Below are positions 16,745-21,138 of a stretch of 64,000 bases of DNA, piece after piece. Location: positions 3,406,001 through 3,470,000 of the forward strand of contig NZ_CP121662.1 of assembly GCF_029714285.1 (NCBI RefSeq). The letters are read 5' to 3'. Within the stretch, counting starts at the first letter, position 1; the number at the start of each line of letters is the position of its first letter. The DNA comes from Rhizobium sp. CB3090. Lineage in GTDB: Bacteria > Pseudomonadota > Alphaproteobacteria > Rhizobiales > Rhizobiaceae. Under the pieces are notes generated by a model. It did no database searches. It was given only the letters and a program-made list of their open reading frames with translations, and was not told where the DNA came from. A program made the position numbers and the translations under genes.

Positions 16745-17353
16745 ATGGACAAGTTCGTGAAGTTGACCGGTGTCGCAGCACCCCTCCCGGTCGTGAATGT
16801 CGATACCGACATGATCATCCCGAAGGACTATCTGAAGACCATCAAGCGCACCGGTCTTGGCACGGGATTGTTCGCTGAAGCCCGCTACAATGAGGATGGC
16901 TCGCCGAATCCGGATTTCGTGCTGAACAAGCCGGCCTATCAGAATGCCAAGATTCTCGTCGCCGGCGACAATTTCGGCTGCGGCTCCTCGCGCGAGCATG
17001 CCCCGTGGGCGCTGCTCGACTTCGGCATCCGCTGCGTCATTTCGACCAGCTTCGCCGACATCTTCTATAACAACTGCTTCAAGAACGGCATCCTGCCGAT
17101 CAAGGTCAGCCAGGAAAATCTCGACAAGCTGATGGACGACGCCTCGCGCGGCTCCAACGCCATCCTGACGATCGATCTGGAAAACCTCGAGATCACCGGC
17201 CCGGACGGCGGCTCGATCAAGTTCGACCTCGACGAATTCAAGCGCCATTGCCTGCTGAACGGCCTCGACGATATCGGCCTGACGCTGGAAAAGGCCAAGG
17301 CGATCGACAGCTTCGAAAAGACGAACGCCGCATCCCGCCCCTGGGCTGCCTGA
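16745..17353 (+). CDS. leuD: 3-isopropylmalate dehydratase small subunit LeuD
   Basis: Small subunit of isopropylmalate isomerase, which with LeuC converts 2- to 3-isopropylmalate in leucine synthesis. The swivel domain hallmarks are present: [50 protein letters not shown] and [17 protein letters not shown]. 202 aa is the normal length, and GAAGGCAGGA lies a few bases before the start. leuC is not in the window. leuB, the next enzyme, lies 2.7 kb downstream, with an epimerase-like gene and the IS110 element between. Confidence 0.96.
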
Positions 17354-17542: not shown

Positions 17543-18361
17543 ATGACCTCCCTTCCTATTGTCGGCGCCGCCATGACTCTTGCCGACGTCGAAACCCATC
17601 GCAATTGGCTGCTTGAAAAGCCGCGCGATCTGGAACTGCAGAGCTTCGTCGAAGCCGATGTCCTGAATGGCGACTGGTCGCCGCTTGCCGAGCGCGCCAG
17701 AAAACTGCTCGACGGCCATCAGGGCCGCCTCGGCATCCATGGCCCGTTCTGGGGCTTCATCATCGCCTCGCACGACCCGGAGATCCGCGCCGTCGTCACA
17801 AAGCGCCTGCTGCAGGCGCTCGACGTCTGCGCCAATATCGGCGCGACGCAGATGGTCATCCATAGCCCCTATACGTCGTGGTCCTACAACAATCTCGACA
17901 ACAACAAGAGCGAACGCGAGAAGATCATCCAATACACGCATCTGACGCTGAAGGACGCCGTGAAGCGCGCTGAAGACATCGGGCTCACCATGGTCATCGA
18001 GAACATCGAGGATAAGGATCCCCATATCCGCGTCGGCCTCGCCGACAGCTTCAATTCGCCCGCCGTCGCCGTTTCGATCGACACCGGCCATGCCCATTAC
18101 GCTCACGGCTACACCGGCGCACCGCCGGTCGACTATTATGTCAACGCCGCCGGCAACCGCCTGCAGCATGTCCATCTGCAGGACGCAGATGGCTATGCCG
18201 ACCGCCACTGGAGTCTCGGCGAAGGCAATATCCGCTGGCATTCTGTCTTTGCCGCCCTTGCCAAGCTCGACAGCAACCCGCGCCTGATCATCGAGATCAA
18301 GGACAAGTCCAAGATCCCGGCATCGGCCGCCTATCTCGCTTCGCTTGGATTGGCTGAGTAA
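17543..18361 (+). CDS. Sugar phosphate isomerase/epimerase (xylose isomerase-like TIM barrel)
   Basis: 272-aa member of the AP endonuclease 2 / xylose isomerase-like barrel superfamily. Metal-binding positions are visible in GRLGIHGPFW, MVIHSPYTSW, TMVIENIED, VSIDTGHAHYAHG, LQHVHLQDADGYADRHWSLGEGNI and LIIEIKD. This His/Glu/Asp set is typical of sugar isomerases or epimerases that use a divalent metal. The sugar is unknown. It lies between leuD and leuB but shares no overlap with either, so I do not assign it to leucine synthesis. Confidence 0.85.
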   Translation: MTSLPIVGAAMTLADVETHRNWLLEKPRDLELQSFVEADVLNGDWSPLAERARKLLDGHQGRLGIHGPFWGFIIASHDPEIRAVVTKRLLQALDVCANIGATQMVIHSPYTSWSYNNLDNNKSEREKIIQYTHLTLKDAVKRAEDIGLTMVIENIEDKDPHIRVGLADSFNSPAVAVSIDTGHAHYAHGYTGAPPVDYYVNAAGNRLQHVHLQDADGYADRHWSLGEGNIRWHSVFAALAKLDSNPRLIIEIKDKSKIPASAAYLASLGLAE

Positions 18362-18383
18362 GAATAAAGCAACGCAAACCACC

Positions 18384-18428
18384 CGCCCTCGTGGTTCGAG
18401 ACGGCCCTGCGGGCCTCCTCACCATGAG
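18384..18428. repeat. Palindromic repeat (CTCATGGTGAGGAGGCCCGC type), copy interrupted by IS110
   Basis: On the minus strand this reads CTCATGGTGAGGAGGCCCGC followed by AGGGCCGTCTCGAACCACGAGGGCGG. The other end of the repeat (GATTAGCC before the CT) is found on the far side of the IS110 element at 19617-19624. Intact or variant copies lie at 19741-19795, 19861-19913, 22991-23039 and 35996-36048. Confidence 0.82.
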
Positions 18429-18439
18429 CAACCATTAGA

Positions 18440-19405
18440 TCAAGCAGTCCAAGGGATATTTCTGGCAAGAACGGTGTTGACGTAGATCACGAGTTTTCTA
18501 GCGCAAGCGACAAGGGCGCATTTGTGCTTCTTGCCTTTTGCGATGAGACGGTTGTAGAGGGCGACGAGCTGCGGGTTCCATTTGAAGGCGGCTGGCAGTG
18601 CTGCGGCATAGAGGGCCTTGCGGGGCCTTGCGCGTCCGCCGGCGATATGGCGCAGGCCGCGCTGATTGCCGCTGTCGTGATCGAAAGGTGCCAGGCCGAT
18701 GAGGGCGGCGGCTTGTTCGCGCGACACATGGCCCAGTTCCGGCATATCGATGACCATCGACAGCGCGGTGGGCTTGCCGATGCCGGGAACGGAGCTTGCC
18801 AGATCAAGGCGTCGAGCGAGATCGGGATGGACACGGACTTCTTTTTCGAGTTGGCGGCGTTCACTGGCGATCCGTCTATTCAAGGCAGCGATGTCGTCTT
18901 TGATTTCCGCAATTAGACGCGGATCGCGGCGATGCTCGAGGCGTGTCTTCAGGCGGGCGACGTCTTCGACCATGTCGTCGATGTGGACGAGATGGTCGTG
19001 CAAGGCCTGCAGGACGGCGTTTTGCGTGACGTCGGCGATCTTAGGCCGCGGCTCGGTGATCGCCGTGAAGGCGGCGATGATCGAGGCATCAAGCCGGTCG
19101 TTCTTGGCCCGGCGCAGCTTTAGGCGCGCGTATAGGCGCACCTGAAGCGGTTGATGCACGAGAACTTGCAACCCGGCCCGGTGCAGTGCCGCGACCGCCT
19201 CGCGCTCGTAGCCACCCGTCGCCTCGATGCCGACCCGTTCGACACCCGCCGTCGAAAGCCGCTCGACAACCTCGGTGAAGCCCGCCGCCGTATTGAGCGC
19301 CCGGAAGGACGCCTGTTCCACCCCTGTCGCCGCGTCGAGGATCGCCACGTCGAGAAATGCCTTGCCGGTATCTATCCCGGCAACTGTCGTGATAAGCTGC
19401 TTCAT
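18440..19405 (-). CDS. IS110-family transposase (RuvC-like plus Transposase_20 domains)
   Basis: 321-aa recombinase. The N-terminal RuvC-like DEDD domain shows D12 (VAGIDTGKAFLDVA), E61 (VGIEATGGYERE), and D103 and D106 (KNDRLDASII). The C-terminal Transposase_20 domain shows a helix-hairpin-helix-like SVPGIGKPTALS and the nucleophile Ser at position 245 in FDHDSGNQRGLRHI. These are within one to four positions of the IS621 residues D11, E60, D102, D105 and S241. The ATG at 19405 (MKQLITTVAG) is chosen because the region just upstream is the structured bridge-RNA segment. An earlier in-frame start at 19453 would overlap it. IS110 proteins use an RNA encoded in the element to pair donor and target DNA. 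Confidence 0.93.
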   Translation of the reverse strand: MKQLITTVAGIDTGKAFLDVAILDAATGVEQASFRALNTAAGFTEVVERLSTAGVERVGIEATGGYEREAVAALHRAGLQVLVHQPLQVRLYARLKLRRAKNDRLDASIIAAFTAITEPRPKIADVTQNAVLQALHDHLVHIDDMVEDVARLKTRLEHRRDPRLIAEIKDDIAALNRRIASERRQLEKEVRVHPDLARRLDLASSVPGIGKPTALSMVIDMPELGHVSREQAAALIGLAPFDHDSGNQRGLRHIAGGRARPRKALYAAALPAAFKWNPQLVALYNRLIAKGKKHKCALVACARKLVIYVNTVLARNIPWTA

Positions 19406-19412
19406 CTTCGTC

Positions 19413-19592
19413 GACCCATCCTTGCTATGCGAACCCATGGTTCCTGCAACCATCCGGGTCCGATGAAGAAACGGAGACGATCTTGCTCATGGACAGCCAA
19501 AGGCTTCGCCAAGGCTAAGGGCTGAACGATCCATCCCCGTCGCCGGGACCTGGACCGTCATCCAGATCCCGGCATCCGTAAGGATGCACCAC
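19413..19592 (-). ncRNA. Candidate IS110 bridge RNA
   Basis: Minus-strand RNA of about 180 nt from the left end. Structure by eye, 5' to 3': hairpin GCATCC-TTAC-GGATGC (19587-19572). Next is a long hairpin, CCGGGA..CTGGA with TCCAG..TCCCGG (19572-19543). The target loop (19538-19473) has outer stem GGGGA/GATC with GATC/UCUCC, inner hairpin AGCC/GGCU, and loop strands containing UCAGCCCU and CCAUGAG. The donor loop (19460-19413) has outer stem GACCC/GGGUC, inner hairpin GAACC-AUG-GGUUC, and loop strands with AUGGUUGC and GCAUAGCAAG. Both target strands match the interrupted repeat around CT. AUGGUUGC matches the element's right end. It ends 8 nt before the transposase ATG. Size and order match the published IS621 bridge RNA. 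Confidence 0.75.
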
Positions 19593-19651
19593 TAAAACAC
19601 AGCCGCCTAATACAAGGGCTAATCTTCTCGTCCAGCTTAAAGCTCACTTCG

Positions 19652-19681
19652 CCCTCAATCCTGCGCTTGTCGAAGGATGAG
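19652..19681. repeat. Palindromic intergenic repeat (CTCATCCTGAGCTTGTCGAAGG type), copy 2
   Basis: CCCTCAATCCTGCGCTTGTC then GAAGGATGAG, with two changes from copy 1. It lies in the 409-bp gene-free stretch 19617-20025 between the IS110 element and leuB. That stretch consists mostly of repeat copies and I saw no gene in it. Confidence 0.6.
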
Positions 19682-19740
19682 CTTATCGAGAGATGAACTG
19701 GGCAAGGGATCTGGATGTGCCCCGTGATGACGCACTCCCT

Positions 19741-19795
19741 CCGCCCTAATGGTGAGGTGCGAAGCCCAGAGCGCAGCCTCGAACCACGAGGGTCG
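19741..19795. repeat. Palindromic repeat (CTCATGGTGAGG type), divergent copy
   Basis: CCGCCCTAATGGTGAGGTGC followed by a changed centre and CTCGAACCACGAGGG at the right end. The left arm (CCCTAATGG) differs from the CCCTCATGG of other copies. Confidence 0.65.
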
Positions 19796-19860
19796 GCCCC
19801 AAAATCCCGGTTATTTTCGCGCAGGTCCATGCCGAAGCAGCCTTTGGTTAAGCGCAACAG

Positions 19861-19913
19861 ATCAGCCCTCATGGTGAGGAGGCCCGCAGGGCCGTCTCGA
19901 ACCACGAGGGCGG
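19861..19913. repeat. Palindromic repeat (CTCATGGTGAGG type), intact copy
   Basis: ATCAGCCCTCATGGTGAGGA, then GGCCCGCAGGGCCGTCTCGA and ACCACGAGGGCGG. The 13-mer TCAGCC-CT-CATGG (19862-19874) agrees fully with both target strands of the candidate bridge RNA. This copy therefore shows what the interrupted site looked like, and it is itself a predicted target. Confidence 0.8.
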
Positions 19914-20025: not shown

Positions 20026-21138
20026 ATGACAGTGCGCAATCTCTTCCTCCTGCCGGGCGACGGCATTGGTCCTGAAGCCATGGGCGAAGTCCGCAAGATT
20101 ATCGCTTATATGAATGAGGCGAAGAATGCCGGTTTCGTCACCGACGAGGGTCTTGTCGGCGGCAGTGCCTATGATGCGCATGGCGCCGCCATCTCCGAAG
20201 AGGATATGCAGAAGGCGCTGGCGGCCGATGCCGTGCTCTTCGGCGCCGTCGGCGGCCCGAAGTGGGATAGCGTGCCTTATGAAGTACGCCCGGAAGCCGG
20301 CCTGCTGCGCCTGCGCAAGGATCTCCAGCTCTTCGCCAATCTGCGTCCCGCCATCTGCTATCCGGCGCTGGCATCGGCCTCCTCGCTGAAGCCTGAGCTG
20401 GTCGACGGCCTCGATATCCTCATCATCCGCGAGCTCACCGGCGGCGTCTATTTCGGCGAGCCGAAGGAAATCATCGACCTCGGCAACGGCCAAAAGCGCG
20501 GTATCGACACCCAAGTCTATGACACCTACGAGATCGAGCGCATTGCCGGCGTCGCCTTCGAACTGGCGCGCACCCGCAACAACCGCGTCTGCTCGATGGA
20601 AAAGCGCAACGTCATGAAGTCCGGCGTGCTCTGGAACCAGGTCGTCACCGCGACGCACAAGGAAAAATATGCCGACGTTCAGCTCGAGCATATGCTCGCC
20701 GATGCCGGCGGCATGCAGCTCGTGCGCCAGCCGAAGCAGTTCGACGTCATCGTCACCGACAACCTCTTCGGCGACATGCTCTCCGACGTCGCCGCCATGC
20801 TGACCGGTTCGCTCGGCATGCTGCCGTCAGCCTCGCTCGGCGCTCCGGATGCCAAGACCGGCAAGCGCAAGGCGCTCTACGAGCCCGTGCATGGCTCGGC
20901 ACCCGATATCGCCGGCAAGGGCATCGCCAACCCGATCGCCATGATCGCCTCCTTCGCCATGTGCCTGCGCTACTCCTTCGGCCTGGTGGCCGATGCCGAT
21001 GCGCTGGAAAAGGCGATCGCCAACGTGCTCGACAGCGGCATCCGCACCCGCGACATCATGTCGGCTGGCAGCCGCCAGGTCGGCACCGCCGAAATGGGCG
21101 ATGCCATCCTCGCCGAATTCAAGGCTCTGTCGGCATAA
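20026..21138 (+). CDS. leuB: 3-isopropylmalate dehydrogenase LeuB
   Basis: NAD-dependent enzyme that oxidises and decarboxylates 3-isopropylmalate to 2-oxoisocaproate in leucine synthesis. It opens with [19 protein letters not shown], then [20 protein letters not shown] (substrate loop), the Arg pairs in [16 protein letters not shown], the Tyr/Lys in [44 protein letters not shown] (metal Asp residues), and [18 protein letters not shown] (NAD adenine). 370 aa is the usual length. GGAGG lies 9 nt upstream of the ATG. A parS-like site and a terminator follow it. Confidence 0.96.

Follow-up and report, generated by a model that had tools for sequence, protein, structure and literature searches.

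The mechanism to which the present element relates is already published for IS621, an IS110-group insertion sequence of E. coli. In the published accounts, the bridge RNA of IS621 lies in the left end, upstream of the gene, carries its guides in the order left target, right target, left donor, right donor, and works around a CT core; catalytic roles are described for D11, E60, D102, D105 and S241 of its recombinase (PMC11208158). The same paper reports a discontiguous right donor pairing that includes a G161-dT12 pair; pieced together from it, the right donor reads CTTGTAT, and one of its sentences gives A as the base following the core. According to a survey, 85.7% of IS110s have a predicted bridge RNA (PMC11208160). 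Target choice is also RNA-guided in the IS1111 group with its seekRNA, where the non-coding RNA region is described downstream of the gene (PMC11187229). REP targets of IS110 elements were reported in 2006, among them ISRm19 of S. meliloti, found in REP sequences in four of four cases (PMC1525189).

We analysed a window of 64,000 nt (the whole stretch of DNA under study) from Rhizobium sp. CB3090 (NZ_CP121662.1), which holds a single intact IS110-group insertion sequence on its minus strand (Table 1). Its left end very probably encodes a bridge RNA that reads both the target repeat and the element's own ends. The left junction reads GATTAGCC, CT, TGTATTAGG, with ATTAGCC just before the core, and the right junction AATGGTTG, CT, CATGGTGAGG; the extent of the element follows from these two sequences. 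An earlier note on this DNA had given the same start but an end at 19624, which takes in the core and eight target bases; the CT at which it placed the insertion is present at both junctions. From left end to start codon there are 209 nt, and from stop codon to right end 11 nt; this long non-coding end upstream of the gene places the element in the IS110 group, in contrast to the downstream RNA region of IS1111-group elements. Five inverted pairs of at least 12 nt occur in 18300-19800, none of them connecting the two ends. DNA and protein searches of the element's own genome (6.49 Mb, 4 contigs) found no further copy.

Table 1. Features of the element and its surroundings, in window positions.
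Feature	Position	Strand	Basis
leuD, upstream of the element	16745-17353		NCBIfam
Right target CATGG and remainder of the interrupted palindromic repeat	18385..18426	(-)	inverted-pair search, genus relatives
Whole IS110 element, 1,188 bp counting one CT core	18427..19614	(-)	junction sequences, uninterrupted sites in genus relatives
CT core, right junction	18427..18428	(-)	junction reading
Left donor ATGGTTG, last bases of right end	18429..18435	(-)	junction reading
Recombinase TnpA, 321 aa	18440..19405	(-)	Pfam, NCBIfam, alignment to IS621
Bridge RNA region as aligned, 184 nt (aligned span; 5' limit set by the alignment)	19415..19598	(-)	20-element alignment
Right donor guide (RDG) AUAGCAAG	19428-19421	(-)	guide table, left-end comparison
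Left donor guide (LDG) AUGGUUGC	19453-19446	(-)	direct reading, alignment
CA after RTG, handshake position by analogy with IS621	19484..19485	(-)	direct reading
Right target guide (RTG) CCAUGAG	19492-19486	(-)	guide table, flank comparison
Left target guide (LTG) UUCAGCCCU	19526-19518	(-)	guide table, flank comparison
Long 5' hairpin, 14 pairs	19542..19573	(-)	covariation, fold
Small 5' hairpin	19574..19585	(-)	fold of first 60 nt
Right donor TGTAT, first bases of left end	19610..19614	(-)	junction reading
Left target ATTAGCC and CT core, left junction	19615..19623	(-)	junction reading, guide-flank comparison
Intact target copy nearby, GATCAGCCCTCATGGTGAGG	19860..19879	(+)	sequence reading, own-genome repeat count
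leuB, downstream of the element	20026-21138		NCBIfam

The recombinase carries the Pfam domains DEDD_Tnp_IS110 and Transposase_20, both above cut-offs, and also exceeds the cut-off of NCBIfam NF033542 (IS110 RNA-guided transposase); among solved sequences, two matched at E up to 0.001, IS621 and ISCro4. It is distant from the IS621 enzyme (phmmer 81.4 bits over 312 residues). The five residues picked out beforehand, D12, E61, D103, D106 and S245, all align to the catalytic D11, E60, D102, D105 and S241 in the IS621 structure sequence, and the CT core is likewise shared. Upstream of its start, the tnpA frame stays open across the donor loop and reaches an ATG at 19453 (18440-19453); this position is the first base of the LDG, so that translation from there would make gene and RNA overlap.

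The joined flanks of the element, searched in 100 genus genomes, gave matches in 82, many of them limited to the repeat or to the neighbouring gene. At nine of ten loci examined, the relative aligns across the junction and its site is uninterrupted, eight of these sites being identical to AGCCCTCATGG and one (L148) carrying a single change; the tenth (L149) fails to align across the junction. Because nine of the ten relative loci hold the uninterrupted site, we conclude that the element entered a pre-existing palindromic repeat. In the own genome, AGCCCTCATGG occurs intact ten times; allowing up to one mismatch gives 115 sites, compared with 37 for the pattern read backwards. Two more copies of the interrupted repeat lie less than 300 bp from the element (19740-19792 and 19860-19905), one of which has a full target match and is unoccupied. 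The ORF beside the element (17543-18361) has no NCBIfam match at E up to 1e-20.

The stretch preceding tnpA can be aligned across 20 elements, and it agrees with the earlier description as IS621-like in that the guides stand in the same order, upstream of the gene. The aligned region measures 184 nt in the window, where about 180 nt had been estimated by eye. The stretch 19410-19600 folds with a z score of -4.29 against 200 shuffles. Two 5' hairpins drawn by eye are recovered when the first 60 nt are folded alone, but in the minimum-energy fold of the whole region the arm of the first hairpin is paired elsewhere. Among the 20 minimum-energy folds, all contain the long 5' hairpin and 11, including that of the window, have the smaller hairpin before it; for the IS621 set, by contrast, one 5' stem-loop is described.

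Two of the proposed stems covary. In the long hairpin, two-sided changes are found at 11 of 12 pairs, with every pair broken or gapped in one to four sequences. The lower stem of the target loop keeps 5/5 pairs in 20/20 sequences with seven different 3' arms, which 20 of 50,000 shuffles equalled, where the score is per sequence at the best register for each 5' arm and has a high background (cross mean 4.42/5); column pairing failed to catch this stem, owing to one-base register shifts. The donor-loop stems are nearly invariant among relatives, and covariation support is confined to the other stems. Since Rfam has no matching family (nothing in the window reaches gathering scores, and 18400-19700 gives no match up to E = 1), the covariance-model search that had been proposed used a model made in this analysis from 17 relatives, with the window element, Root708 and Defluv held out. 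This model recovers the window RNA at 19415-19545 with 81.9 bits (E 1.3e-15; next best in the window 18.7), a match that rests largely on sequence, as the RNAalifold structure behind the model differs from the expected bridge RNA structure.

The first internal loop of this RNA would recognize AGCC-CT-CATGG at the edge of the palindromic intergenic repeat. The RTG had been read as the complement of CTCATGG, and it does pair with all seven bases of that right flank, including 5/5 non-core bases. On the left, UCAGCCCU had been equated with the target strand; this is exact for the intact repeat at 19862-19869, but the actual left flank, ATTAGCC, agrees with the LTG at only five of seven non-core bases.

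We compared guides and flanks across relatives, drawn mainly from a set of 65 loci plus plasmid records and genus genomes. Left guides match their own flanks at a mean of 5.97 of 7 non-core bases and the flanks of other groups at 3.41 (17 groups, 33 insertions); for right guides, the values are 3.60 of 5 and 2.02 (14 groups, 29 insertions). Label shuffles, which treat groups as unrelated and ignore the kinship of elements, reached the observed value in 0 of 100,000 cases on either side, with the best right-side shuffle very close to it (50.17 versus 50.33). A reduced set of nine left and eight right groups gave no equally good shuffle on the left and 22 per 100,000 on the right. Without Smel, genA and G442, three groups whose alignment was done by eye, the left side (14 groups, 21 insertions) stayed at 0 of 100,000 and the right side (11 groups, 17 insertions) was weaker at 639 per 100,000; on further removal of Bsacch, the counts were 0 left and 830 per 100,000 right. 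The alignment of homologues suggested in the earlier note thus finds loop strands that change with their flanks.

Agreement varies among groups. The left guide is perfect for all copies of PMG244, JSC-3b (4 copies), B29 (2), Kiruna, Luteim and Blablabi. The window LTG fits the flank of B12Acet better (6/7) than its own (5/7), and that of B29 equally; the bog930 left guide fits its own flank no better than those of others, and one G442 copy matches at 2/7. Right guides of PMG244, Luteim and Hypho show about equal agreement with their own and with foreign flanks. These tests cover 37 loci in 18 groups, leaving aside Root708 L010 (truncated, duplicated left end), L018 (contig edge), L031 and L032 (RNA region duplicated in inverted orientation), the left flank of L030 (left end truncated) and the right flanks of L013 and L016 (masked), L131 (same place as L130) and L133 (damaged flank); L033-L067, L070-L074, L078-L104 and L114-L129 stand outside the guide analysis. 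Element ends were set by end strings picked per group, and the core position in the genA and G442 guides was set by eye and then revised, choices that could favour the result. The same holds for Smel, whose right end was read as ATGGTTGCG (ATGGTTG in its place would lower the right match to 2/5), and for Bsacch, whose right flanks are on contigs other than that of the guide used. In L032, the RNA region occurs twice upstream of the gene as an inverted repeat that would form a very long hairpin.

Identical loops beside unrelated flanks, which the earlier note had named as evidence against guiding, are found in part in the copy of Rhizobium sp. Root708 (L010). Its DNA is 96% identical over 999 bp, loops included, and its left flanks match the near-identical loops at 4/7 (by eye), but this copy is 3'-truncated, and its left end is duplicated, with the first bases standing in tandem (CCTTGTAATAGGCATCTGT twice).

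The recombinase itself might read the repeat, by sequence or hairpin shape, with loop matches due to ancestry or chance and the RNA serving another role. The imperfect left match of the window would suit this explanation, as would the frequency with which left flanks are hairpin arms (16/33 insertions versus 244/6,600 control positions). We nevertheless judge it very unlikely, as guides and flanks shift together between close relatives (ACCCGCC in JSC-3b, ATCCGCC in B29) and the left flank of the window is not a hairpin arm by the measure used (5/8). A main role of the left-end RNA in regulating tnpA expression is slightly less probable still: the RNA stops some 10 nt short of the tnpA start codon, the open frame continues into it and the ISPpu9 transposase is reported to be regulated by small RNAs (PMC8450116), but a purely regulatory role would give the internal loops no reason to change with flanks and element ends. 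Regulation could be an additional role beside guiding.

Guiding by the RNA would also extend to the element's own junction, ATGGTTG-CT-TGTAT, recognized by the second loop. As noted beforehand, the 5' strand of this loop, the LDG, matches the element's own right end running into the core, and it hardly varies among relatives. The RDG had been paired with CTTGT through a final G-T wobble, and it indeed follows the left end across relatives: it complements CTTG in all 17 groups having a left end, and the next base forms T-A in 11 groups, C-G in two, G-C in one and a G-T wobble in three (window, G442 and G064). The RDG therefore covaries with the left end, by Watson-Crick pairing in 14 of 17 groups and by wobble in the rest. 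The wobble of the window corresponds to the G161-dT12 pair of IS621, standing at the same place in a discontiguous guide, and the right donor of IS621, as pieced together, is the same as that of the window; two bases are described as flipped out in the IS621 guide, whereas one is skipped here, as we read it. By direct reading rather than statistics, the CA after the RTG complements the TG before the donor core, and the LDG ends in the core C followed by A, which parallels C130-A131 of IS621. The target of IS621 differs from that of the window element. Comparisons between sequences thus support the guide assignments, which had been offered as inference.

On the model of the homologous IS621, transcription of the RNA would take place on the excised circle, from a promoter that spans the core. 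A promoter scan of the linear element found none; the circle junction offers a weak sigma-70-like candidate, TTGCTT-17-TTTAGT (7/12 matches), and in 9 of 12 elements TTGCTT with spacing 17 ranked first, as a raw count. The recombinase would then bind the RNA, hold target and donor DNA on it and use its RuvC-like and serine active sites for strand exchange at the CT core, after which the two junctions would share only the 2-bp core. By the same analogy, the element may be active today.

The IS110 elements of S. meliloti (L130, L134-L137), which are probably ISRm19, have a recombinase about 49% identical to that of the window and the same RNA layout, with a target that lies in a rhizobial repeat and differs from that of the window. 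The name is suggested by two pSymB places common to both sources, where the records have no annotation. Two extra bases (CG) stand between their ATGGTTG and the CT, and it is this CT that matches their right target guide; because of the CG, their left donor guide is not aligned with the core as in other groups. Two related rhizobial elements (L111, L113 and L134-L136) occupy the same repeat, CCTGCCGGCACCTTCTCCCC, with matching guides and cores 4 bp apart, GGCAC-CT-TCTCCCC and GGCACCTT-CT-CCCC. The nucleotide search of 394 family genomes gave matches in 42, mostly short fragments, and phage records held no DNA similar to the element. Protein searches found relatives in 23 of 99 other genomes of the genus at 1e-40, in one of 396 of the order at E 1e-60 and in none of 384 of the class at 1e-75.

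Related elements use hairpin arms ACCCGCC, ATCCGCC, GCCCACC or ACGCATC. As the left target is a hairpin arm in so many of the insertions, though not in that of the window, the guide may have been captured from the repeat itself or be tuned to it. We tentatively propose, as a possibility somewhat short of probable, that a mostly alphaproteobacterial IS110 lineage tracks the palindromic repeat of its host by rewriting the target loop. The series of guides following different hairpin repeats may be new; in literature from 2024 on, with subscription journals and preprints little covered, 'bridge RNA' and 'rhizobi' were not found together. The window element itself is a well-supported further example of the mechanism known from IS621, with four bridge RNA guides that could be picked out by inspection of one single-copy element and that comparison afterwards confirmed. 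It adds a compact recombinase with natural guide variants, and a lineage whose guides follow different host repeats would be a natural set for studying the retargeting of bridge RNAs.
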